Position numbers and translations under genes: made by a program. 64,000 nucleotides of DNA from contig NZ_CP064908.1 of NCBI RefSeq assembly GCF_015841355.1, positions 2,232,001 through 2,296,000 of the forward strand. Direction: 5' to 3'. The stretch comes from Synechococcus sp. CBW1107. Its GTDB lineage: Bacteria; Cyanobacteriota; Cyanobacteriia; PCC-6307; Cyanobiaceae. Below are positions 37,889 to 50,412 of the stretch, one piece after another (within the stretch, counting starts at the first letter, position 1; each line of letters begins with the position of its first letter). The notes beneath the pieces are model-generated. The model was not told the DNA's origin, ran no database searches, and saw nothing but the letters and a program-made list of their open reading frames with translations.

Positions 37889-37940
37889 GCCCACCCTGCC
37901 GCTCTGCCCGCCGGCCCTTGTCTGCTGCCACAATGACAAG

Positions 37941-38010
37941 GTCCGTCCTCGGGCGGACTAGGTGGCTCACACCGGTGCTTCGGACAGCGGTTCGATTCCG
38001 CTCAGCTCCA
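37941..38010 (+). ncRNA. ssrA: tmRNA (ssrA), acceptor piece of the permuted two-piece gene
   Basis: The natural 3' part of tmRNA lies upstream of the natural 5' part, so the gene is circularly permuted. The T-arm and acceptor strand read GGACAGCGGTTCGATTCC then GCTCAGCTCCA, with the T-loop TTCGATTC. The 3' acceptor strand CAGCTCC pairs with GGGGCTG at 38041-38047, seven pairs with one G-U. A small hairpin (GTCCG/CGGAC) marks the 5' end. The intervening 38011-38040 segment should be removed during processing. The CCA end is not encoded. Confidence 0.92.
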
Positions 38011-38040
38011 TTCCACCCCCGCTGCGGCGGCGGTTGTCGG

Positions 38041-38240
38041 GGGGCTGCAATGGTTTCGACGGGGTATGAGGAGGGTGACTGAAGCCTGCTCGGTAAGAGC
38101 AAACCCGTAACAGCGAACAACATCGTTCGTTTCTCCCGTCAGACCGCCCCTGTGGCCGCCTGACTCCTATAGGGAGATGGGGTAGGTCAGCCTTATCACC
38201 CAAATGACCCATGGGGGGCTGGAAGGCCCCCTTCCCATTG
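38041..38240 (+). ncRNA. ssrA: tmRNA (ssrA), coding piece with proteolysis tag
   Basis: The coding RNA begins GGGGCTGCAATGGTTTCGAC, a standard tmRNA 5' end. The resume codon GCG at 38113 starts the tag ANNIVRFSRQTAPVAA, ending with TGA at 38161-38163. The tag tells proteases to destroy stalled peptides. The tag and the split gene are those of Synechococcus/Prochlorococcus-type cyanobacteria. The exact 3' end of the mature RNA is uncertain; a GC-rich hairpin (38214-38231) follows and overlaps the island att repeat. Confidence 0.92.
38213..38240. repeat. att-like repeat, left copy (28 bp, in the ssrA 3' hairpin)
   Basis: This 28-bp sequence recurs perfectly at 50385-50412, 12.2 kb away in the same orientation. 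Similarity extends imperfectly about 20 bp further upstream (TATCACCCAA, then TGA). It includes a 6-bp stem GGGGGC/GCCCCC with loop TGGAAG. Together with an integrase gene beside the other copy, it fits attL of an element integrated in ssrA. Confidence 0.8.
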
Positions 38241-38249
38241 CAATTACTG

Positions 38250-38357
38250 GTGTCTTACGAGTCTCGTCAGCCCCGCACCAACAACTGTTTGGCCGTTCGC
38301 ACCACCGACGGCCGCTACCAGTCGATCACCTACACGACCAAGGCCGACTGCAACTGA
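38250..38357 (+). CDS. Possible small protein just inside the island (35 aa)
   Basis: A GTG-started frame encodes MSYESRQPRTNNCLAVRTTD then GRYQSITYTTKADCN. It has two Cys and good codon choice, stops 28 bp before a strong terminator hairpin, and begins 10 bp inside the att repeat. I do not recognise it. It could be a fragment moved in with the element, or read-through coding by chance. Confidence 0.3.
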   Translation: MSYESRQPRTNNCLAVRTTDGRYQSITYTTKADCN

Positions 38358-38384
38358 GCCAAGGAACTACTCAGTAGTAGCGAC

Positions 38385-38421
38385 AGCTCTCCACGCCTGG
38401 TTATGCCGGGCCTGGAGAGCT
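38385..38421 (+). terminator. Terminator hairpin after the small frame
   Basis: Two 16-nt arms (AGCTCTCCACGCCTGG and CCGGGCCTGGAGAGCT) pair at 15 of 16 positions around the loop TTATG. TTTGTTG follows. It could end transcription coming from ssrA or from the small frame. The 38422-38556 stretch after it holds nothing else I can support. Confidence 0.7.
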
Positions 38422-38763
38422 TTGTTGCTGATGCCCCTGCAGGCCCACAAGCCATCCGCAACCTCTTGATCCCGCTGTCATTCGAGCTACCAAAAGGCAA
38501 TAGCGGGACTGCAGCTGGAGCAAAGATCCTGCTGACTCTTAGATTTGACCTACGGATTACTGGCGACGGATCGGGCCTTTGGTCCGAGCATCGGAATCGA
38601 ACCAACTGCTCTCATTGGCGATGCGGGGATCGCCTTGAATCGTGAAGGTGATAAAGCCGGTTTTGAAAACCAAGGCACCGTCACTGAGCTTGCTGGCGAC
38701 AGACTTGCCATTTACCAACACCTTGTTTTTGTTATCAATGCGGATGGTGGCCACGGTTTGCCC

Positions 38764-40363
38764 GGTAGCGCCCCTCCGAGTGGTGTAACTCAGGAGGTCC
38801 TGTGACCCTCTCCGGAGGGTGAACAGGAGCAGTCAGGGGATGACTGCTTGGAAGCTGATTGCGCAGCTCCATTGATCCATTATGAACCCTGATCGCTGAA
38901 TTGGCAACTCAGCGATCGATGTGTTCTGTGTAGATCGAGGTAGAAGCTGGTGCGCTTCAGCTGATGGTTGCAGCCGGCTGGGCGTTCGGATCTGCATCGG
39001 TGAGCTCCAAGGGCTCTTCTGGCTCTGGGATCTTGGCCATGGTGGCCTCAGAGAAGAAGCGGCGACGCTCCAGCTGCCATTCCTCCTGCTGCTCCAGCAG
39101 CTGGCTGCCCACCAGGCGCACGATCGCTGGATCATTGGGGAAGATGCCGACCACGTTGGTGCGGCGTTTGATCTCCTTGTTGAGGCGCTCGAGCGGGTTG
39201 GTGCTCCAGACCTTGCGCCAGTGCTCCTGGGGGAAGTGCAGGAAGGCCAGCACGTCGTCCCGGGCGGCTTCCATCACGGGCACGGCGCCGGGGAACTGCT
39301 TGCGCAGCATCTCGGTGACCCGCTGCCAGTGGGCGCGCACCTGATCTGGAGCCTGGATCACGAACACCGCTTTCATGGCAGCGGCCACCATGTCCTGGCC
39401 GGCCTTGGGCACATGGCTCAGCAGGTTGCGCAGGAAGTGCACCCGGCACCTCTGCCAGCTACTGCCCTGGAACATCCGCTTGATCGCTGCCGTCAGGCCC
39501 AGGTGGGCATCCGAGATCACCAGGCGGGTGCCGTCGAGGCCACGCTCCTTGAGTGAGCCCAGGAACTGACGCCAGAAGCCCTCCGCCTCGCTGTCGCCCA
39601 CGGCAATGCCGAGAACTTCGCGGTAGCCGAGGGCATTGATGCCGATCGCCACCACCACCGCCCGCGACACCACCTGCATATTTCGGCCCAGGCGGCCGTG
39701 GAGGTAGGTGGCGTCGAGGTAGACGTAGGGAAAGCGGGCATGGTCAAGCGGCCGGCCCAGAAAGGCTTTCACCTGCTCATCGAGCCCCTGGCAGATGCGG
39801 CTCACCTCCGATTTGGAGATGCCGCTGGCCCCGCCCAGCGCCTCCACCAGGGCGTCGACCTTGCGGGTGGAGATCCCGCCGGTGTAGGCCTCCATCACCA
39901 CGGCGTAGAGCGCCTTGTCCACCCGGCGGCGTGGCTCCAGCCAGCTGGGAAAGAAGCTGCCCTGCCGCAACCTGGGAATGGCCAGGCTGAGGTCGCCCAC
40001 CTGGGTGGTGAGCAGCCGCTCCCGGTAGCCGTTGCGATGGGTGGAGCGCTGATCGGGGCAGCGCTCATGGAGTTGAGCGCCCGTGAGGGCAGAAACCTCG
40101 GCTTCCAGCAGGTCCTGGAAACCCCGGCGCACGATCTCTGGGATCAGGGCGCCAGCGGTGGTGCCCTCCATGAGCTGGCTCAGCTCGGAGGCGCCACTAT
40201 GGGTGAGGGTCATGGTCTGTGTTCGGTTTGGTGGTAGTTCTCCGAACAGGGTCACAGACCGGCCCACCCATTGCCACAGCTGAAATCTGAGGGAGGTGAG
40301 CCGTCAGCCCCGGCTACGCCGGGGCTGATCCTCCTGAGTTACACCACTTGCTGGGACGCCGCT
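38764..40363 (-). mobile_element. IS256-family insertion sequence, copy 2 (1600 bp)
   Basis: The same element as at 565-2164. It is flanked by a perfect 8-bp direct repeat GTTTGCCC, the expected size for this family, which fixes the ends exactly. The terminal inverted repeats share GTGGTGTAACTCAGGAGG. The insertion breaks a secreted-protein gene. Identity with copy 1 implies very recent transposition. Confidence 0.96.
38957..40213 (-). CDS. IS256-family transposase, copy 2
   Basis: The translation is identical to the transposase of copy 1, including YVYLDATYLHGR, VISDAHLGLTAAIKR and NPLERLNKEIKRRTNVV. About 418 residues from MTLTHSGASELSQ (ATG at 40211-40213), with the same alternative upstream start. 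It is expected to act on the terminal repeats of both copies. Confidence 0.95.
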   Translation of the reverse strand: MTLTHSGASELSQLMEGTTAGALIPEIVRRGFQDLLEAEVSALTGAQLHERCPDQRSTHRNGYRERLLTTQVGDLSLAIPRLRQGSFFPSWLEPRRRVDKALYAVVMEAYTGGISTRKVDALVEALGGASGISKSEVSRICQGLDEQVKAFLGRPLDHARFPYVYLDATYLHGRLGRNMQVVSRAVVVAIGINALGYREVLGIAVGDSEAEGFWRQFLGSLKERGLDGTRLVISDAHLGLTAAIKRMFQGSSWQRCRVHFLRNLLSHVPKAGQDMVAAAMKAVFVIQAPDQVRAHWQRVTEMLRKQFPGAVPVMEAARDDVLAFLHFPQEHWRKVWSTNPLERLNKEIKRRTNVVGIFPNDPAIVRLVGSQLLEQQEEWQLERRRFFSEATMAKIPEPEEPLELTDADPNAQPAATIS

Positions 40364-40623
40364 GTTTGCCCAGTTCCGGGATTCTTGGCGACCCACTTGC
40401 CGGCGTAAGGCGAAGCGGCGACAGCCGGTGCCGTTCCGAAACCAGCTTTGGCGTTTTCGGCTTTGCTCTTGTTGATGTCGCAGCCTTTCAACTCTGTTAG
40501 CTGGGTACAGCCAGATTTCTCGAGCTTCTTGGCATAAGCCGGATCAATGGCATGTGAAGCAAGAGGCAAGAACAGCCCGCTCGCGGCGACCGCGGCAAGG
40601 AGAATGCGCTTTTCCTGTTTCAT

Positions 40624-41555
40624 TTTGAAAACATTTTTGGGTTGTTGAGAGAAATTATTGCAAAGCCAAGAGTTTAAATCCTTTTTAAGCTTAGCACTGC
40701 AAGAATTATCACAAGCCAGTGTAACACTGGCAAAGCAGCGTGGTCAACAAGCGATCGTCAGTTCTGTCGCTGCCATATAGAGGGTGGCTTGTCAAGAGCT
40801 GGCTTTTGGCAAGCCGCAGCCCTCAATTCTAAATTACAGGACTGACAACGCAGTGCCCCAGCAACGCATGGTTGAAACCTCCTCCACCGTGTCTGAAGTT
40901 GCATGCCCTGATTGATTGGTGGTGAGTGATGCAGCACGCATGAGCGGTGCAGATCGGTGCTGACATAACACGCGGCCTGACTGACATCGGGATCGTGGGG
41001 CATCACGCGCAGTGCAGCGTGAATGTGACCAAGCGCCTGACTGAAGTGTTGCCACTGAGCAGCTGCGCTGACAGCAGGCTGACCAAACTGTTATCCAGCC
41101 TGCGGCTCAATCGCCCAGGCATCAGAGGGAACCAGGAAGCGGAGGCCGACGCCAGCACTGATCGCGTCCCTATACCTGCCAAGAACTCAGCAGGTGAGGG
41201 TGTCAGGAGCCCGTGGTGTGACATTTGCAGAACCTTCGGCTCTTACCTTGATGGTCGCTGCCCCCCTCCCCCCTGATTGGCTCAGCTGGTAGCGAAGCCT
41301 GAAGTGGGGATGGGAAAACAATTTACGGCTGATCGTCGAACTAGACGTTCGGGTTGTGAACGTTGTCCAGGCGAGCCGAGAGTCTGCGCTTCTCGCCATG
41401 ATCTCAGACGAAGACATCGTGATCAGGCTGGGCGTTGTGCGTGACGTTGACGATCCTGCATTAGATCTGCGCAGTCAGTGCCTGGGGATTAGGCGCGCGG
41501 CAGATGAAGTCGGCACCATCATCGAGCTTCACTTCAGAGGTGAGGAGGCCTGGCA
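40624..41555. other. Gene-free, partly A+T-rich stretch inside the island
   Basis: About 930 bases upstream of the split secreted gene and beyond. The first 110 bases are A+T-rich (promoter-like for the secreted gene). The rest contains only short frames with stops and no family signature. A minus-strand stretch near 40850-41100 looks faintly protein-like (FSQALGHIHAALRVMPHDPD) but carries an in-frame stop just upstream and no start, so it may be a decayed gene. Confidence 0.5.
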
Positions 41556-42215
41556 TCACTCAATCGACTGGGTGCCCAGCCTCGACCAGAGATCGCGCAG
41601 CAGGCTGTCACCACCCAGCCGGTTGGTACCACGCAGACTGAGCAGGACACAGGCGTAGGTCCGGTGGGGCCTCAGCCCCAGCAGTCGCTGCAGGCGATCA
41701 CCGGGGTCGCGAGGGGGTGGGCCGCTGATCTGCCCAAGGCTGGAGGCGGTGATGCCGCTGCTACCGCCGGCCACCACACAGCCCTGGAGGGTGGGATCGT
41801 CGCCGAGGGTGCCGAGGGCCTGTTCCTGGCCCATGTCTTGCAGCAGGCGACGGCTGCGGAGGGACAGTGCCGGATCAGAGCGGGTGAGCTCCGCCACCTG
41901 CAACCGATCGGGCTCGCGGGCGACGAGGCGGGTGAGGGTCAGCTCCACCGCAGCGGCCGGCTTTGTCCCTGGAGCAGTCGGGCCGGGAACGAGCAGTATC
42001 CGGCGGGTGCGACTGCGGGCCCAGTCGCGCTGCCGCTCACCGCCGCGAACCTCCAGCTGCTTCAGCTGATACCCCTCCGGCAGGGACAGCGACGAGGCCA
42101 CGGGGATCGCGGCGCGGGGCCAGGGCGGCATGGCGATCTGGCGGACCAGGGCGGCGCCGGCCAACAGGCAGAGACCTCCGAGAACGGCCCGGAGCCGGCG
42201 ATCAGGAACCGGCAT
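41556..42215 (-). CDS. Cyanoexosortase A system-associated protein
   Basis: A 219-residue protein with one N-terminal membrane span (LRAVLGGLCLLAGAALVRQI) and an extracytoplasmic domain (LSLPEGYQLKQLEVRGGERQ, then VAELTRSDPALSLRSRRLLQ and GCVVAGGSSGITASSLGQI). The size, topology and the 14-bp overlap with the exosortase gene match the accessory proteins that follow exosortases and supply an EpsI-like extracytoplasmic domain. The assignment rests on context more than on a specific motif. Confidence 0.75.
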   Translation of the reverse strand: MPVPDRRLRAVLGGLCLLAGAALVRQIAMPPWPRAAIPVASSLSLPEGYQLKQLEVRGGERQRDWARSRTRRILLVPGPTAPGTKPAAAVELTLTRLVAREPDRLQVAELTRSDPALSLRSRRLLQDMGQEQALGTLGDDPTLQGCVVAGGSSGITASSLGQISGPPPRDPGDRLQRLLGLRPHRTYACVLLSLRGTNRLGGDSLLRDLWSRLGTQSIE

Positions 42216-43113
42216 CGGGAGGCACGGCTGCAGCGGCGAGCTGCCGGTCGATCAGCAGAAGGTAGAGCCTGGCCAGCAGCGCCACTGCGATCACCGAGAA
42301 CACCAGAGAACCCATGTCCTCATGGAAGAAGTCGAAGAGCACCTGCTGGTGCGGCACCTGAAAGCCGACGATCAGCGCCAGCAGGGCGATGCGGATCACG
42401 TTGCTGAGCATGGCCAGGGGAACCGCCGCCAGCAGCACGAACATCCGGTTGCGCCAGCGATCCAGCGGGAAGGCGAGCAGGAAGATGACGGCCACCAGGA
42501 TCACCATCACCATGAGATCCCGGCCGCTGCAGGGTCCGGACACCTCCACTGCCCCATAGGGAAGAGAGACGAGACGCCCCTGCACATCCGCGGGGATCCC
42601 CACGGTCTGAAGCCCCACCCCCGTGGCCAGCGCGGTGAGATGACTGAGCGGCGCTTCGGGGTAGTGGTCGTAGAACTTCCGCACCAGCACGGCGGGCATG
42701 AACAGGGACAGGATCAGCAGCGAGGCGGCGAAGGGCCGCAGACGGCGCGGGGGTGCGCAGAGCAGCGCCAGGCCGAGGCCCTCGATCAGCGGGAGCAGGT
42801 AGATCACGAAATCACGGGCCAGGATCAGCTCCGCCCGCAGCACTGACCACACCACCAGAACGGCCCCGAGGATCAGCCCGCCACGGGTGGGCCGGGGGTC
42901 GAGGCTGGGCAGCAGATCCTCGATGCAGAGGAGGGCGCCACCCCAGATCAGCATCAGCATCACCAGCAGCTGGAGTTCGTCCTGGGTGGAATGGAAGACC
43001 CAGAGGTGGTGGCAGGCGAGCAGGGCAGCCAGGAGGATCCACAGACGGCGCGATCTGAACGATCTCAGCAAGGCACGGGAGGGCGGAGCATGGCCTGAAT
43101 CGGGTTGGTTCAT
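42202..43113 (-). CDS. Cyanoexosortase A
   Basis: A 303-residue membrane cysteine transpeptidase-like enzyme with about 8 spans. The exosortase catalytic triad is visible: Cys in VEVSGPCSGRDLMVMVILVA (about 195), Arg in AMLSNVIRIALLALIVGF (about 240) and His in FDFFHEDMGSLVFSVIAVAL (about 265). Exosortases cleave PEP-CTERM-type tails and hand proteins to the outer envelope. It is the second gene of an operon starting with an HpsJ-like gene 22 bp upstream, and a matching substrate is encoded just beyond. Confidence 0.92.
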   Translation of the reverse strand: MNQPDSGHAPPSRALLRSFRSRRLWILLAALLACHHLWVFHSTQDELQLLVMLMLIWGGALLCIEDLLPSLDPRPTRGGLILGAVLVVWSVLRAELILARDFVIYLLPLIEGLGLALLCAPPRRLRPFAASLLILSLFMPAVLVRKFYDHYPEAPLSHLTALATGVGLQTVGIPADVQGRLVSLPYGAVEVSGPCSGRDLMVMVILVAVIFLLAFPLDRWRNRMFVLLAAVPLAMLSNVIRIALLALIVGFQVPHQQVLFDFFHEDMGSLVFSVIAVALLARLYLLLIDRQLAAAAVPPDAGS

Positions 43114-43135
43114 TCCAGCCTGCAGGTCGTGCCGT

Positions 43136-43894
43136 CTAGGTCTCTTCTGCTGGAAACGGGCTGCTGAAGATCACCCACAGGCGTCTGAGACGCCCGGTGT
43201 AGAGCACCCGTGCCAGTACAAGCGCGGCCAGACTGTTGCCGATGGCCTCCTTGGCTGCACTCCAGCGCACGCCCCTCATCTGCTGACTTTTGCGTGCACG
43301 AAGCGTCGTGCGCTCCTGCTCGATGCCGGCCAGCAGTTCCTCCTGGGCCTGTGACAGGGGCAGTGATCCGGTCCGTTCGATGACCGGTGGGGGGAGGTCC
43401 TTGATCGCGCTGTTGAGGTCTTCGGGAGTGGTGGCTGCCGAGATCTGTTTGCCCAGGGTGGCGAGCTGGTCGTTCGCCACGGCGGATTGTCGGTTGGCTG
43501 TTGACTCCACCTGAGCAAGTGCCTTGTAAGCCACGTAGCCCTGCAGGGGGATCAGCAGAAGGAAGCCGAGGGCTGCGGGCAGGGCCCAGCGGGAGGCAAA
43601 GAGCAGCAGCCTCACCGTGCGGGCTGTGGGTGAGATCAGGGCGGCCAGCAGCAGGAAGCCGAAGCCACCGAGGGGGATGGCTGAGTTGTTGATGAGTACG
43701 GTGATCAGCCCCTGAAGCCAGCCGAGGCTTGTGACATCAAGGGGTAGCAATTGGCGCAGGAAGACGATCAGATAGATGACAAAGAAACCCTTGGCCAACG
43801 CCCGCAGCGTGCTGACCAGCAGCTCGACGTCCATTTCGCCGAGATTGAAGATCCCTCCACGATTTGGATCTGACGTGCTTTCCAGTTCTGGCAT
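43136..43894 (-). CDS. HpsJ-like, cyanoexosortase-associated membrane protein
   Basis: A 252-residue membrane protein. Spans are near 30-50 (LAKGFFVIYLIVFLRQLLPL), 55-90 (WLQGLITVLINNSAIPLGGF, then GFLLLAALI) and 105-125, followed by a helical soluble region (LATLGKQISAATTPEDLNSA) and a final hydrophobic patch (AAKEAIGNSLAALVLARVLY). HpsJ-like proteins accompany cyanoexosortase A and hormogonium-polysaccharide loci. I chose the start MPELESTSDPNRGG (43892-43894); an upstream ATG (43969) is possible. Confidence 0.75.
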   Translation of the reverse strand: MPELESTSDPNRGGIFNLGEMDVELLVSTLRALAKGFFVIYLIVFLRQLLPLDVTSLGWLQGLITVLINNSAIPLGGFGFLLLAALISPTARTVRLLLFASRWALPAALGFLLLIPLQGYVAYKALAQVESTANRQSAVANDQLATLGKQISAATTPEDLNSAIKDLPPPVIERTGSLPLSQAQEELLAGIEQERTTLRARKSQQMRGVRWSAAKEAIGNSLAALVLARVLYTGRLRRLWVIFSSPFPAEET

Positions 43895-43974
43895 CGGAGG
43901 GAGATGAAAGAGACAAGTTCGAAAATTATAAGCGGCGAGCATCTGTAGCCATACTTCTGATGCATGCAAACAAC

Positions 43975-44002
43975 AGAAGCCCTGCCACCCGGCAGGGCTT
44001 CT
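43975..44002 (-). terminator. Terminator hairpin after the PEP-CTERM gene
   Basis: A perfect 12-bp stem, AGAAGCCCTGCC and GGCAGGGCTTCT, closes a 4-nt loop. On the minus strand it lies about 25 bp past the stop of the PEP-CTERM gene and is followed by GTTGTTTGC. It separates the substrate gene from the exosortase operon, so the two units are probably transcribed independently. Confidence 0.8.
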
Positions 44003-44026
44003 GGACCGTTCGTGAGCAACCCGAAT

Positions 44027-44548
44027 TCAGGCGTTGGAGACGGGCTGCTTGCTGAACTTGATGCGCTTCCTCAGCTTGCGGCTATAAGCGAAGGCACTCG
44101 CGGCTCCAAGTATGGAGATAGGACCGGGTACGGGGGTTGCATAGGCAAAATTCAAGGGAGTATTAGTTGCGTTAACTGCAGACGCGCAATTGGAGGTACT
44201 ATTGCAATTGATACTAGCTACAGAGGACTCCGGAGGAGTTGTAGAAGATACAGAAAAGACAAATTTTGCGTTTGCATTTAGGCTCGAGTTTTGAGCAGCC
44301 GTCAACCAGGCCTGCCCAAAAATGTTCGCGTTAGCTTGATCGCCGAACCATTCTTGGTTCTGTAATTGAATTTGCTGTTCAGTTGTTAACTGAGCGTACT
44401 GTTCTTGAACCGTAATGATGTCATAAATACCAAATCCTGGAACATCCACCACCAAGGCGCTTGCTTCATGAGGCTGAAGTACCGACGAGGCAGTGGCCAA
44501 AGCAGAGATTATCGCGACAGTACCTCCCCGCCTGGGAAAACCGATCAT
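44027..44548 (-). CDS. PEP-CTERM-type secreted protein, likely cyanoexosortase substrate
   Basis: A 173-residue secreted protein. It has a signal peptide (GGTVAIISALATASSVLQPH, cleavage near ASA), an alpha-helical Gln/Asn-rich domain (EQYAQLTTEQQIQLQNQEWF) and a Ser/Thr/Asn-rich stretch with two Cys (SINCNSTSNCASAVNATN). The C-terminal sorting signal is TPVPGPISILGAASAFAYSR followed by the basic tail KLRKRIKFSK, the PGP-ILGA-type signal of cyanobacterial PEP-CTERM proteins. Genome proximity makes it the probable dedicated substrate of the exosortase. Confidence 0.88.
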   Translation of the reverse strand: MIGFPRRGGTVAIISALATASSVLQPHEASALVVDVPGFGIYDIITVQEQYAQLTTEQQIQLQNQEWFGDQANANIFGQAWLTAAQNSSLNANAKFVFSVSSTTPPESSVASINCNSTSNCASAVNATNTPLNFAYATPVPGPISILGAASAFAYSRKLRKRIKFSKQPVSNA

Positions 44549-44870
44549 GATTTCCTGACCTTCAAGAATAATATTTAGTTTAGCACCATTGTTGGCCTCA
44601 GCCGCTTCGATGTCGACTTGCTGAAAAATTCGACGCGAGGCGCTGCCTCATCCACGCCTCGCCCTCATACTTACCCGTGCAGGGTGCATTCACCGAGATG
44701 CGGGAATGGCATAAAACGCCGGCCTGGGTCTTCCCTCCGTATCCGGCACGAGACGGTCATGTGCCGGTACTCCTGCTCAGTCCCTGCGATGCGCACGTGC
44801 CTCCCGCCGGTCAGTCGATCGCAACCAGGCATGCCGAAGGGCCTGGCGTTGCTCTCGGGCAACTCCACCT
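44549..44870. other. Intergenic stretch with no recognisable gene
   Basis: About 320 bases between the PEP-CTERM gene and the next membrane gene. The first ~70 bases are A+T-rich and probably hold the PEP-CTERM promoter on the minus strand. The remainder is G+C-rich with only short, non-family frames. It may be debris of a former gene or element. Confidence 0.5.
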
Positions 44871-45335
44871 TCAGCGTCGGCGGCGTGCTGAAGCCTGGTG
44901 ACTAAGCCGCCGGTGCATCCAGGCCGCAATCCACCAGAGAACCGCGGCAGTGCTTGCTCCAAGGCCACCCATCACAGCCAAGAAGATGACGCGATCGGAG
45001 ATGGATGGCGTCACACCCGGCTCCCCGCCACTCCCGAGCATCCACATCAGCCCGAGGGTGAGGCCCACGGCGCAGCCCTCGAAGGCAGCTGCCCGAGCCT
45101 GTCGGCCACCCGGCAGTGGGCGTGCCCGGAGATAGGTCTTCACTCGGCGGTAGGCCACACCGGAGAGCGTGGCGAACGCGGCCACCAGCCAGAGAAAAGC
45201 AGAGGGTGGTGGCGTGTCGGCCCCCGCCAGCGCGACAGAGGTGAGGAGCAGGAACAGGCCCACGGCGCAGATCGCCGCAATCCTGCCCTCTCCAGCCGCA
45301 CAGTTAAGCGGCGGCGACAAGCGGCCTCGCGTCAC
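44871..45335 (-). CDS. Membrane protein, unknown
   Basis: A 154-residue protein with four hydrophobic segments (AICAVGLFLLLTSVALAGAD, AFLWLVAAFATLSGVAY, GCAVGLTLGLMWMLGSGG and VIFLAVMGGLGASTAAVLWW) and a basic C-terminus (RRLSHQASARRRR). No family recognised. It overlaps by 4 bp the upstream secreted-protein gene (ATGA), so the pair is translationally coupled. Confidence 0.55.
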   Translation of the reverse strand: MTRGRLSPPLNCAAGEGRIAAICAVGLFLLLTSVALAGADTPPPSAFLWLVAAFATLSGVAYRRVKTYLRARPLPGGRQARAAAFEGCAVGLTLGLMWMLGSGGEPGVTPSISDRVIFLAVMGGLGASTAAVLWWIAAWMHRRLSHQASARRRR

Positions 45336-45694
45336 TCAGCGACGCGCACAGGGGCGGTGCAGAGTCTGGATGCGGCGATGGGTCCAGCAGGCTGGTATCC
45401 CCAGGCAGGGTCCTCACGGAAGCTGTACACCTCCTTCCCGCCGCGCTCGATCGTGAACACGGTCCAGGTCTGACGCTCACAGCTGAGGCCGATCACCGCC
45501 TTGCCATCGTCGAGGGGCAGTTCCACGTGGCGGATCCCGTCATAGATCCACAGCAGCCGGCCTGCTCCGTTCTCGAGCAGGGAGCGAATCGGGCTGCCCA
45601 GGACCTGAGGCTGGGCGCTGGCGGGTGCGGCCAGCCCTGCCACTGTCAGCAGGACGTTGAGGAGCAGCGCCCAGGAGGCCCGGCGGTCACACAT
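45332..45694 (-). CDS. Small secreted protein, unknown
   Basis: A 120-residue protein with a signal peptide (ASWALLLNVLLTVAGLAAPA, cleavage after ASA near 27). The mature part contains two Cys (LSCERQTWTVF, SRLCTAPVRV) and a beta-rich pattern (WIYDGIRHVELPLDDGKAVI). It is the first gene of a two-gene unit with the membrane protein downstream. No family recognised. Confidence 0.6.
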   Translation of the reverse strand: MCDRRASWALLLNVLLTVAGLAAPASAQPQVLGSPIRSLLENGAGRLLWIYDGIRHVELPLDDGKAVIGLSCERQTWTVFTIERGGKEVYSFREDPAWGYQPAGPIAASRLCTAPVRVAE

Positions 45695-45940
45695 GAGGAC
45701 GAAGAAAGGTCTTCATTTTGCGTTCAAGGCGCCCCCCTGTCCGCAGCAAAGGTCAGAGAACAGCAATCGGTCTTGGGATCAGCCGCCAGACCTGACCACA
45801 GCTTCCAGCATCCTGGAGCCAAGGGATGCGACGAAAGCGGCGACTGCGGTAGCAAGGACTACGAAGTTCTACGAGACCATGGCTGTCGCAACCACGAGGG
45901 TTACGGTCCGATGGCCCTCCTGTCCCGAGCAGGTTCCACC

Positions 45941-46186
45941 ATGAACGTTCTCTGGTTTCTCCTCGTCGGTGTGATTGCCGGCTGGCTTGCCGGGGTTCTC
46001 GTCAAAGGGGGAGGCTTCGGGCTCGTCGGCGATCTGGTGGTGGGCATCATCGGCGCCCTGCTCGGTGGGCTTCTCTTCAGCGGTCTCGGTGGAGCCGTGG
46101 GGGGCGGTCTGCTGGGCAGCATCGTGGTGGCCACCCTCGGTGCGGTGATCCTGCTGGTGGTGCTCAGGGTGCTCAAACGGGCCTGA
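45941..46186 (+). CDS. GlsB/YeaQ/YmgE-family membrane protein
   Basis: An 81-residue, three-span, glycine-rich membrane protein (VLWFLLVGVIAGWLAGVLVK, GLVGDLVVGIIGALLGGLLF, SIVVATLGAVILLVVLRVLK). It matches the transglycosylase-associated-protein/GlsB family induced by envelope or general stress; no enzymatic activity is known. The ATG at 45941 (MNVLWFLLVG) is standard. The 245 bases before it hold nothing I can support. Confidence 0.88.
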   Translation: MNVLWFLLVGVIAGWLAGVLVKGGGFGLVGDLVVGIIGALLGGLLFSGLGGAVGGGLLGSIVVATLGAVILLVVLRVLKRA

Positions 46187-46251
46187 TCCCTGCCGAAGAT
46201 CCTTCACCTCGCTGGGCCTAAGGTTCACTTCAGTTCTTTCGACTTATCACC

Positions 46252-46473
46252 ATGAGCCTGGAAGACAAGATCAAGGCTTCCGCCAAGGATGCCGAGGGCA
46301 AGCTTCAGGCTGCGGCCGGTGAGCTCACCGGTGATGACCAACTCAAGGCCGCAGGCGAGGCCAAGCAGATTCAGGCCAAGGTGATCGATGCAGCCGGTGG
46401 CCTCAAGGACAAGGTGGCGGATGCTGCCGATGCCGTCGGCGACGCCCTCAAGGGTTTGGGCAACAAGGCCTGA
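46252..46473 (+). CDS. CsbD-family stress protein
   Basis: A 73-residue, Lys/Ala/Asp-rich helical protein: MSLEDKIKASAKDAEGKLQA then AAGELTGDDQLKAAGEAKQI. The repeat-like GExxxxxxLKAxGxAxQ pattern defines the CsbD family, small hydrophilic proteins induced by general stress. It follows the GlsB-family gene by 65 bp, and the two families often co-occur in stress regulons. Confidence 0.9.
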   Translation: MSLEDKIKASAKDAEGKLQAAAGELTGDDQLKAAGEAKQIQAKVIDAAGGLKDKVADAADAVGDALKGLGNKA

Positions 46474-46488
46474 CCCTTCGCCGTTTGC

Positions 46489-46902
46489 TCAGCGGCGCCT
46501 TGATCGGCCAGCCCCTGCACGGCCATGGCCTGTCAGCATCCGATACGCCTGAAGCAGCAGAGCGATCGCGATCACGGCTGTCGATTGCAGCGTCGGCACG
46601 ACGATGATCGTCATCCGCTGCACCAGTCGGTGTTCGGGCACGGTGTGGAAGCGGTAGCTGTCGATTCCCAGGAGGAGCGTGCCTCCCAGGGAGAGCACCA
46701 GCACAGCGACGAACAGCAGGTTCGAAAGGCGGGGCCGCTCCCGCTCCCTCCAGGCCAGCAGTCCCATCAGCAGGTAGGGGACAAGCAGGAAGGCCAGAAA
46801 CGGCAGATCCCCCGTTCGCATGCCGGTGGTGCCCGTGCCAACGATCACCAGGCTGGCGAGAGCGGCAAGCATGCACAGCATCCGTGTGGCGCGATCAGCC
46901 AC
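46489..46902 (-). CDS. Membrane protein, unknown
   Basis: About 137 residues with four hydrophobic segments (RMLCMLAALASLVIVGTGTT, LPFLAFLLVPYLLMGLLAW, LLFVAVLVLSLGGTLLLGI and TLQSTAVIAIALLLQAYRML) and a basic tail. The start is uncertain: GTG at 46902 or ATG at 46881. It lies 5 bp after the stop of the upstream membrane gene on the same strand. Confidence 0.55.
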   Translation of the reverse strand: MADRATRMLCMLAALASLVIVGTGTTGMRTGDLPFLAFLLVPYLLMGLLAWRERERPRLSNLLFVAVLVLSLGGTLLLGIDSYRFHTVPEHRLVQRMTIIVVPTLQSTAVIAIALLLQAYRMLTGHGRAGAGRSRRR

Positions 46903-46907
46903 CGCGG

Positions 46908-47189
46908 CTATCGAAACGCCCGCAGGAGTGACCAGGCCGAGAGGAGCAACAGCACGGGCCCGATCACAAGCAGATCGACCCGGATGTTCGCTTCCGGCGT
47001 CCTGAGCAGCACCAGCCATTCCCAGCCAGCGAAGATCCCCCAGGCGATGGCCCCGAACAACAGAGCACTGGGATGGCGGGCAACACCGGGCCATCGGAAC
47101 CTCAGGGCCAGGTAGCCCGCCAGAAAAGAGCCGGCCACCGTCAGGATGGCTGGTGGTTGACCGACGAACAGGGTCACGAGCAGTTCCAT
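46908..47189 (-). CDS. Small membrane protein, unknown
   Basis: A 93-residue, three-span protein (ELLVTLFVGQPPAILTVAGS, PSALLFGAIAWGIFAGWEWL, RVDLLVIGPVLLLLSAWSLL). The start MELLVTLFVGQPPA at 47187-47189 avoids the degenerate integrase sequence upstream. It forms a unit with the membrane gene downstream (46489-46902). No family recognised. Confidence 0.55.
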   Translation of the reverse strand: MELLVTLFVGQPPAILTVAGSFLAGYLALRFRWPGVARHPSALLFGAIAWGIFAGWEWLVLLRTPEANIRVDLLVIGPVLLLLSAWSLLRAFR

Positions 47190-47882
47190 GGTTTTGCCAC
47201 CCTGGTGGATGGGCGAGACCGAGCGGACTGCTTTGCTAACAGTCGGGGTCACCTGGGACTTGGAGATGACGCTCTGCACACCGAGAGCGACCCTCTCGCC
47301 AAACCTCATCGTGGAATAGCTGTCCCAAAGGCCGCGGCAGTGGTTGCGTGTGACGCCCACCGGTAGCTGCTGGAATGCACCGCAAGGCTGTGATGTGACC
47401 CATGGCCATCGCCACAGCCCCCACTTCCACCCCGAAGCGATGGCATCGCAGGCTGTAGCTGTCCCGGAAGGCATAGGGCCGCAGCCACTCCCCCCTGGCC
47501 TCGCACTGTTGCTTGAGGGCGCGCCATTCGGGCTGCCTGGACAGGAACTGCTCCAAATAGTGTCCATTAAGCCTGGCCACGCTGCCATCTGAGCTCGTGG
47601 GAAGCTTCAGCAGGCCTGCGGCGAGTGCTCCCGGCAAGTTCCACTCCACCAGGCTGTCGAGCCGATCATTCAGCGGACAGGCCATCAGCCAGCGGGGCTC
47701 AGTCCTTTGCGCCCCGCAGGCCTTGCGGTAGCTGCACCACAGCCTTTTGATGCCGGCCTCGTCCGTCTTCACCGTGAGGTGCTGGAGTTCCGTGGGCCTC
47801 AGCCCGTACTGGGTGAGCAGCCGAAGCACGTTGGCCCAGCCGGGACGGTGACTGCCAGGAAAGATGACGTCCCTGCCGCTGA

Positions 47883-48968
47883 TCAGGCGGCCATTACCAA
47901 CGTAGTCGGATTGGTGCTGTTTTCTGGATCTGGTGGGTTGATCCAGACCACCTCCGGCTGACGCCAGCAGCGTGTGCTGCCGCTCCAGCGGCGAGGATGC
48001 CGTTGACGGGCCTGTTCGTACAGCTGGGCTCGTTGGCTGCAGATCGCAACGGCCTGGCCGCTATGGCGCTGATCGGGAGTCACGAACCGGATGCCGCTGT
48101 GGCGGTGCTGGTGGTTGTACCAGTCCACGAATGCACAGGCCCAGGAGCAGGCTTCTTCCACGCTGTTGAATGGCCGCCGGGGGTAGTCCGGCCGGTATTT
48201 CACGGTGCGGAACAGCGACTCCGAGTAGGGGTTGTCATTGCTGACCCTCGGCCTGGAGAACGACCGCAGAACGCCCAGCTCCTCCAGCCGGGTTTCCAGG
48301 GTGGCCGCTCTCATGGCGTTGCCGTTGTCGGCATGGAGGATCAGCGTCTGGCGGCGCCTTCTACTGATCCGCTCCCGCAGGCAGGCCCGGCTGACGAGAT
48401 CAGCGGCGATCTGTGCGTCCTCGCGATCGGCGACATCCCAGGCCACCACTTTGCGGCTCCAGACGTCGATCACCAGATAGAGATAGAGCCAGACACCACG
48501 CACGCTGGTGGGCAGGTAGGTGATGTCCCAGCTCCACACCTGATTCGGCCCCCTTGCCTCGAGTCGTGGCACTGCGCGGGGTTCCTGCGGTGGACGGGCC
48601 CGACCGCGATGGTGAGCCTGGCCATGGGCGTGGAGCACCCGATAGAAGCTGCGCTCTGAGCCGATGTAGACGCCCCGATCGGCCAGCACAGGAACGATCT
48701 GCGCGGGTGGCAGAGCTGCGAATTCTGATTGGTTGCAGGTGAGGAGAATCCGCTGGCGTTCCTCATCTGTCAATCGGTGAGAAACCAGGCGGTGGCTGCC
48801 TTTACGGCCATCATGGCCGTCCCCATCACCTGCGAACTGACGCCGCCAGCGCTGCAGGGTGCTCAGCCCCACGCCCAGCAGCGTGGCCAGTTCAAAAGAC
48901 CGTGCACCAGCCGCCATACCGGCATCGAGGATCTCCAGCGCCTTACGGCGATCAACTGGAGAGGTCAA
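47883..48968 (-). CDS. IS3-family transposase OrfB (DDE integrase core)
   Basis: A 361-residue retroviral-integrase-type catalytic subunit. Catalytic Asp in QVWSWDITYLPTSVRGVWLY, second Asp in LILHADNGNAMRAATLETRL and Glu in SNDNPYSESLFRTVKYRPDY (DDE with the IS3 spacing). An N-terminal HTH21-like region precedes (RSFYRVLHAHGQAHHRGR). It begins with an ATG overlapping the orfA stop, so it may be made alone or as a frameshifted OrfAB fusion. Confidence 0.93.
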   Translation of the reverse strand: MTSPVDRRKALEILDAGMAAGARSFELATLLGVGLSTLQRWRRQFAGDGDGHDGRKGSHRLVSHRLTDEERQRILLTCNQSEFAALPPAQIVPVLADRGVYIGSERSFYRVLHAHGQAHHRGRARPPQEPRAVPRLEARGPNQVWSWDITYLPTSVRGVWLYLYLVIDVWSRKVVAWDVADREDAQIAADLVSRACLRERISRRRRQTLILHADNGNAMRAATLETRLEELGVLRSFSRPRVSNDNPYSESLFRTVKYRPDYPRRPFNSVEEACSWACAFVDWYNHQHRHSGIRFVTPDQRHSGQAVAICSQRAQLYEQARQRHPRRWSGSTRCWRQPEVVWINPPDPENSTNPTTLVMAA

Positions 48969-49471
48969 TCGTCCCCGTCCTCTCCCCAGTAGGCCTGGAT
49001 CTTTTTTGACGCCATCAGCAGAGCAGCCGCCTCTGCCAAGGCCTTGTCCTTACGGCGCAATTCCTGCTGCAGGCGCTTGATCTCCCGCTGATCGGCCTGG
49101 TGGCGCTTCTCCAGGTCTTTCTGCTCGGCCATGGTCAGCAGTGGCTGCGCATTGGCATCCTGCGCCGCCTGGCGCCAGCGGTCCACCTGTTCGGGGAAAA
49201 GGCCCCGTTCGCGGCAGTAGGTGCTGAGTTCGGTGGCATTCATGCCAGCACTCTCCAGCACCACTGTGAACTTGTCGGAGGGACCCCAACCCTCCGGATC
49301 CTTCTGGGTGGCTGGCACCACCTCCCCCTGCAGCCGCCAGGCCTTCCGCCACTTGTAGAGGGTGATCACGTGAATGCCCAGTTCCTGGGCGATCTCAGTG
49401 CAGCTCTGGCGGTGGGGAGGCCCCATCCGCCGGCGGACATCAGCCTTGACGGCCTCGCTGTAAGGACGCAT
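48965..49471 (-). CDS. IS3-family transposase OrfA (HTH and leucine-zipper)
   Basis: A 168-residue DNA-binding partner. A helix-turn-helix (SCTEIAQELGIHVITLYKWR) is followed by a second HTH-like region (LSTYCRERGLFPEQVDRWRQ) and a coiled coil (EKRHQADQREIKRLQQELRR) used for multimerisation. It begins MRPYSEAVKADVRRRMGPPH, about 52 bp from the right inverted repeat. Confidence 0.92.
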   Translation of the reverse strand: MRPYSEAVKADVRRRMGPPHRQSCTEIAQELGIHVITLYKWRKAWRLQGEVVPATQKDPEGWGPSDKFTVVLESAGMNATELSTYCRERGLFPEQVDRWRQAAQDANAQPLLTMAEQKDLEKRHQADQREIKRLQQELRRKDKALAEAAALLMASKKIQAYWGEDGDD

Positions 49472-50301
49472 TGGTCGGTTCCATCAGGCCCCCTGGTGGT
49501 TGAAATGGTCGGAATGGAGAGGCGTCATCTTTCCTGGCAGAGGGGGGGATTGCGGGCCTCGATGGCGTCGATCAGATCCAGCAGTTCCTGATCATCAAGG
49601 GTGGCCTTGGTGCGTTTCGCGGCTGGGCGACCCCGCAGCTCCTTGATGCTGGCGCTGCTGATCCGCCAGCAGCTGGGTTGGTGGTGGCGGGTGACAGCGT
49701 GATCCGTGAGATTGCGCAGGGCGATGTAGCAGGCCGCACGGCTGGGTGGCTTGCCGCTCCACCGGATCAAGGTGCGCCGGAGAAGTTCGTGGCCATCGGC
49801 AGGTGGCTTGGACTCCGTGAGCAGAAGGACCGCTTCCTCGATGTAGGGCGCGTAGTTGCTTCTCCAGGTCTGCTCAAGGATCTCGTTCCGGCCGTTCTGG
49901 AGGGCATCCCGCAGGCTGTTGGCTATGGCTTCCCAGTCGGCGGTCGGGGCCATTGTGTCGCTCAGTCCCAGCGTGGAGGCCAGGGCCCCCCTGAGCGTCT
50001 GCTGGTTGCTGGCCACGAGCTGTAGATCCGCCCGATCAGCTGGAGGGCCGGACTTACAGATGCCGGAGACCATTCAAGTGGCAACACAACCCCCTGTGCT
50101 GGCTGACCGGGGTGGCGCACCTGCAGGCGGATGCGGGCTCGATGCCGGCTCACAGTCCAGCCTGGGGCGACTTTGGCGGCTCCCCGGAAGCCGATCTCCC
50201 AGGGCTGGCTGCGGGCATGGCGGCCAGGGAAAAATTGCACACAGGGCGTGTGCATAATTGCCCTTTCAGCTTACTCCGAGTTCCTTGGTGTTCTCAGAAG
50301 T

Positions 50302-50324
50302 CCCCCCCCCCCCCCCCCCCCCCC
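50302..50324. repeat. Homopolymer of 23 cytosines
   Basis: An uninterrupted C23 run, 47 bp upstream of the integrase start codon and 60 bp from the right att repeat. On the minus strand it is G23, within the expected integrase upstream region. Such a tract is prone to slippage and can form quadruplex-type structure. Its length in the assembly may be unreliable. Confidence 0.9.
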
Positions 50325-50384
50325 GCAAGGGAAGTCTCAAGTCTGGCTCAAGGATCTGATATCTGTATCACCCAATTGACTCAC

Positions 50385-50412
50385 GGGGGGCTGGAAGGCC
50401 CCCTTCCCATTG
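50385..50412. repeat. att-like repeat, right copy (28 bp)
   Basis: A perfect second copy of 38213-50412's left-end repeat (at 38213-38240), with extended imperfect similarity upstream (TATCACCCAA) but without the rest of ssrA. It lies 130 bp from the integrase start, as expected for attR of an ssrA-integrated element. The sequence to its right (GCAGTAAGTCGG) is presumably the original chromosomal neighbour of ssrA. Confidence 0.8.

Follow-up and report, generated by a model that had tools for sequence, protein, structure and literature searches.

Exosortases have been tied to exopolysaccharide loci, and a single enzyme often serves dozens of substrates, so their chemistry and the fate of their substrates are hard to test. 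A four-gene locus in the picocyanobacterium Synechococcus sp. CBW1107 raises the question of whether an exosortase can instead be dedicated to one neighboring target, and whether such a pair came to its present host on a mobile island. The window analyzed here is a stretch of 64,000 bp, positions 2232001-2296000 of a genome that is complete in one contig of 3,202,093 bases (about 3.2 Mb), and all coordinates below refer to it. A sequence-only reading had described a cyanoexosortase A cassette with one adjacent substrate, and we found every element that it named in place between 41556 and 44548 on the minus strand. Read along that strand, the order is a tagged secreted substrate, a terminator-like hairpin, an HpsJ-like protein, the exosortase and an associated protein, and the whole cassette comprises four intact genes in about 3 kb:

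44027-44548, minus strand: substrate, a 173-residue secreted protein with an Asn/Gln/Ser-rich mature part and a C-terminal sorting tail (open reading frame)
44459-44548, minus strand: signal-peptide-like N-terminus of the substrate, about 30 residues (by reading of the sequence, not by a predictor)
44048-44137, minus strand: C-terminal sorting tail TPVPGPISILGAASAFAYSRKLRKRIKFSK, with motif, short hydrophobic helix and basic end (profile match and alignment with seven other tails)
43974-44003, minus strand: terminator-like hairpin between substrate and HpsJ, a 13-bp stem followed by a T-rich tail
43136-43894, minus strand: HpsJ-family membrane protein, start corrected to ATG 43894 (NF038305, identity to the GFB01 protein, translation)
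42202-43113, minus strand: exosortase, cyanoexosortase-A-like (PF09721, TIGR03763, catalytic residues, identity to the GFB01 enzyme)
41556-42215, minus strand: exosortase-associated protein (homology to genes of GFB01, G107 and G079)

The HpsJ and exosortase genes are separated by 22 bp and the exosortase and associated-protein genes overlap by 14 bp, a tight spacing. The substrate lies directly upstream, with 0.9 kb between exosortase and tail; because a strong terminator-like hairpin (-35.9 kcal/mol, z -4.9) stands behind the substrate gene, this gene is probably a transcription unit of its own. The HpsJ gene likely starts at ATG 43894 rather than at TTG 43969, since the hairpin occupies 44003-43974 and the ATG start matches the counterpart in Synechococcus sp. 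GFB01, which belongs to the same family as CBW1107.

The exosortase belongs to the PF09721 superfamily (105.2 bits, cut-off 25.7), and a search of the complete CBW1107 genome with this model returned no other exosortase. Its presumed active-site residues Cys195, Arg241 and His264, held in the motifs SGPCSGRD, SNVIRIA and FFHEDMG, are invariant across 17 aligned exosortases. Of the named models, TIGR03763 (cyanoexosortase A) gave the best score, so this part of the earlier assignment stood, but at 110.7 bits the enzyme stays under the curated cut-off of 150. Four picocyanobacterial relatives, scoring 94-127 bits, also stay under this cut-off; therefore, the CBW1107 enzyme and its relatives appear to form a divergent group next to the named family, and going by these model scores we file it as cyanoexosortase-A-like and not as a member of cyanoexosortase A. 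The enzyme is 73% identical to that of GFB01. Searches by sequence matched it to none of the solved structures, and a scan of viral contigs found no relative.

The HpsJ protein reaches the family model NF038305 marginally (60.7 bits, cut-off 60), whereas its best named model, the narrower NF050013 (HpsJ-like A), gives 69 bits against a cut-off of 140; identity to the GFB01 counterpart is 55%. The associated protein is 56% identical to that of GFB01 and 32% identical to the gene that follows the exosortase in G107, G079 and other genomes. It did not match TIGR04153, the model for the cyanoexosortase A system-associated protein, and its G079 homologue matches this model weakly (21.6 bits).

We next consider the substrate, which has a hydrophobic stretch at residues 9-24, preceded by two Arg residues, and ends in the tail VPGPISILGAASAFAYSRKLRKRIK. 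The published PEP-CTERM models TIGR02595 and TIGR04155 both miss this tail, which is thus outside the class as they define it; in a wider sense it is PEP-CTERM-like, with a motif, a helix, a basic C-terminus, an N-terminal signal (by reading) and co-distribution with an exosortase. Because the two published models failed, we combined eight tails from three genomes (CBW1107, GFB01 and G013) into a new profile. On CBW1107 this profile found the substrate tail at E values of 1e-17 to 4e-20, and elsewhere in the 3.2 Mb genome it found nothing with E < 0.1 and no other C-terminal match. With E values of 1e-17 and no second C-terminal match, the profile search indicates that the tail is not due to chance. 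Four weak profile matches and one TIGR02595 match elsewhere in CBW1107 were inspected and are not C-terminal tails. The mature part of the substrate gave no match to a known domain, and a search among 291 genomes of the class returned the protein itself alone. An AlphaFold model reached a mean pLDDT of 38, so we claim no fold, and an adhesion role, as the richness in Asn, Gln and Ser might suggest, is a guess.

The same earlier reading had placed the cassette on an integrase-linked island. This proposal gained precise borders, at the 3' end of the tmRNA gene ssrA:

37921-38254, plus strand: ssrA (permuted tmRNA), the integration site (ARAGORN; conserved in nine genomes of the genus)
38194-38240, plus strand: left direct repeat (attL-like), the 3' end of ssrA (94% identical to 50366-50412; border alignment)
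50366-50412, plus strand: right direct repeat (attR-like), a second 47-bp piece of the ssrA 3' end (ssrA search; border alignment)
38241-50412, no strand: genomic island of 12.2 kb, absent in G004 and G005
38764-40363, minus strand: IS256-type (Mutator) insertion sequence within the island (PF00872)
47236-47829, minus strand: tyrosine integrase, C-terminal part, frameshifted near its end (PF00589, E 0.014; frameshift by reading)
47853-49539, minus strand: two-ORF insertion sequence that splits the integrase gene (17-bp perfect inverted repeats at 47853 and 49523; transposase domains)
49540-50073, minus strand: putative N-terminal part of the same integrase, tentative (position and reading; no Pfam match)

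The DNA on the two sides of the island, left of 38240 and right of 50366, is contiguous in congener G004, and G005 is alike; the border alignment shows that such an empty site joins the left and right flanks of the CBW1107 island directly. The island thus has 47-bp direct repeats and empty sites in relatives, and its integrase, whose remnants adjoin the right repeat, is not intact: the gene is split by an insertion sequence and, by our reading, frameshifted near the presumed catalytic tyrosine. On the evidence of this broken gene, the island is no longer self-mobile, and transfer is past rather than present. The notion of a transferable module therefore holds for acquisition on an island but not for present mobility. 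The IS256-type element is identical to a copy at 565-2164 (1600 bp each). Other cargo includes small stress-type genes and, at 45527-46473, a transglycosylase-associated family protein beside a CsbD-like protein, and a run of 23 C on the plus strand lies near the right repeat (50302-50324). Five congeners (G001, G002, G003, G006 and G007) have different DNA, about 2-3 kb long, between ssrA and the conserved right flank. Since several congeners have other DNA there, the 3' side of ssrA is a variable site and looks like an integration hot spot.

A further feature of the host concerns polysaccharide export. PF02563 (polysaccharide export), the sole polysaccharide family searched, had no match in the complete CBW1107 genome; each of eight congeners has one or two members, and they were found also in four other genomes tested. 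The copy near infA in G004 sits past the end of synteny with CBW1107. This absence, together with the split and frameshifted integrase and the IS256 element inside the island, would suit a system that came on a now-dead island and has fallen out of use, its single substrate being the remainder of a larger set. We regard such a relic as unlikely, as none of the four cassette genes is disrupted, the catalytic residues have been conserved, tight spacing persists among the HpsJ, exosortase and associated genes, and the substrate retains its signal, tail and terminator.

How closely tail and enzyme belong together was assessed in a sample of 300 genomes of the family. The tail profile was positive in 44 of them, with up to 27 tails per genome, and the exosortase clade, defined by an E value of 1e-37 or better, was present in 40. 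Both occurred together in 39 genomes, the enzyme alone in 1, the tail alone in 5 and neither in 255, counts for which a Fisher test ignores the relatedness of the 300 genomes. Thirteen genomes carry a distant exosortase type alone, and 2 of these have the tail. Because 39 of 300 genomes have both and 2 of 13 distant-type genomes have the tail, this distribution indicates that the tail is tied to this exosortase clade, with CBW1107, at a single enzyme and a single tail, as the extreme case. Neither this tail nor this exosortase clade occurs in the other eight species of the genus; congeners G002, G003 and G008 (L033, L034 and L035) carry a distant exosortase type but no such tail. Within the sensitivity of the tail profile, which might overlook a second type of tail if it were very different, CBW1107 has one enzyme and one adjacent target. 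The search of the whole genome for further tails, which had been proposed as the check on a dedicated pair, thus found one exosortase and one C-terminal tail, and this favors such a pair.

It could still be that the exosortase processes further proteins whose tails are too divergent to be found, so that the single tail would reflect how the search was done. Even the known tail escapes the published models, which makes detection of tails difficult in this lineage, and some tail-bearing genomes have another exosortase type alone. However, the lineage-specific profile yields up to 27 tails in related genomes and one C-terminal tail in CBW1107, and we therefore judge a broader set of substrates to be improbable.

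Related cassettes occur elsewhere in the family. In the exosortase tree, CBW1107 groups with GFB01 (100/100) and then with G107 and G079 (98/89), inside a picocyanobacterial clade, and congeners G002, G003 and G008 have exosortases that fall far from it. GFB01 has the same HpsJ, exosortase and associated-protein order with two tail genes, one of them incomplete, in an insert of roughly 9.7 kb between infA and trxB; these two genes are direct neighbors in seven other genomes, CBW1107 included. A search for border repeats around this insertion gave none that was clear, and the tail profile found no tails beyond the two of the cassette in this assembly, which is about 78% complete. In G079, an insert of 5.6 kb holds a substrate, HpsJ, exosortase, associated protein and a second substrate, with two local tails, at a site that corresponds to an uninterrupted stretch near 21.7 kb in the CBW1107 window. 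Copies of a 113-bp repeat border this insert, and a third copy lies between the first substrate and the remainder (L162: 6411-6523, 7938-8050 and 11956-12068). By reading, a hinT-like gene seems to have its 5' end within this repeat. The G079 layout, a substrate followed by an HpsJ-exosortase-associated-substrate block, appears as if modules had been added successively at the 5' end of this gene. By these comparisons, such a cassette is present in three genera, each time at another chromosomal site. The enzyme of G013, G107 and G137 lies among apparent polysaccharide genes (annotation by reading). Vertical descent of an ordinary cyanoexosortase locus, with loss in most congeners, an idea to which the frequency of the broader exosortase clade in the family lends something, is very improbable and we reject it: instead of many tails and vertical descent, we found one tail, empty sites with direct repeats in congeners, a gene tree that departs from the genus with the exosortases of three congeners in a remote clade, and related cassettes at other chromosomal sites.

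Together, these results make it quite likely that the locus encodes an exosortase dedicated to its substrate and that CBW1107 acquired the system on an island integrated at the tmRNA gene. In such a system, the substrate would be exported by Sec and its signal peptide removed, and the tail of motif, helix and basic end would retain it in the inner membrane, the PGP motif facing the periplasm. The exosortase, through Cys195, Arg241 and His264, would then cleave the substrate at the motif and either hand it to a surface anchor or release it outward, with HpsJ and the associated protein as predicted membrane partners. We infer cleavage, anchoring, surface location and partner roles, and likewise that enzyme and substrate moved together. 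The mature parts of the CBW1107 and GFB01 substrates are weakly alike (2 of 2000 shuffles reach their score), and for this reason co-transfer of the exact substrate is unproven; the likeness hints at joint travel and falls short of proof. A bolder reading, which we hold tentatively and consider somewhat doubtful, is that of a self-contained, mobile surface-display cassette, made up of an exosortase, two partners and one or two private substrates, that integrates at sites varying from one picocyanobacterial genus to another and operates in the absence of Wza-type polysaccharide export. If true, exosortases would no longer be bound to exopolysaccharide as has been assumed. That related cassettes occupy different sites suggests that sorting enzymes can be exchanged together with their tagged cargo as one unit; such trade could alter the picocyanobacterial surface in one step, and one compact unit may have carried a surface-protein system between species. 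A natural pair of one enzyme and one substrate, with its partners in about 3 kb, would moreover offer a minimal system for studying how cleavage and anchoring proceed and what HpsJ and the associated protein do.

In a literature search, we found no paper on PEP-CTERM systems in Cyanobium and Synechococcus together. Among known systems, the CBW1107 locus resembles the cyanoexosortase A system (TIGR03763, NF050013 and TIGR04153), which supplies the best named models for its exosortase and HpsJ; the same partner genes adjoin the enzyme, and the tail has a motif, helix and basic end. It differs in that both proteins score below the cut-offs of these models, the associated protein is unmatched, PGP stands in place of PEP in a tail that TIGR02595 and TIGR04155 miss, and the genes form a compact cassette on an island. 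For the cyanoexosortase B system of Nostoc punctiforme, Sec export, retention in the inner membrane by the tail, processing by the exosortase and outward transfer by an unknown path have been proposed (PMC12188702). Shared with it are a single exosortase, an associated protein directly downstream, and the proposed Sec export and tail processing; N. punctiforme, however, has 35 PEP-CTERM proteins and a location among polysaccharide genes, in contrast to one tail and an island in CBW1107, whose exosortase scores 35 bits against the CrtB model. The EpsH/PEP-CTERM system of Proteobacteria likewise shows co-distribution of exosortase and tail and substrates that are single-gene units. Haft and others reported exopolysaccharide genes in all PEP-CTERM bacteria (PMC1569441), whereas CBW1107 has no PF02563 match, and it is therefore a possible exception to this association as far as this one family indicates. 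The notion of a dedicated sorting system comes from rhombosortase and GlyGly-CTERM (PMC3237569), where, as here, there is one enzyme and one target per genome, encoded by neighboring genes. Rhombosortase is a rhomboid protease, whereas the CBW1107 enzyme is an exosortase that sits on an integrative island together with HpsJ and an associated protein.
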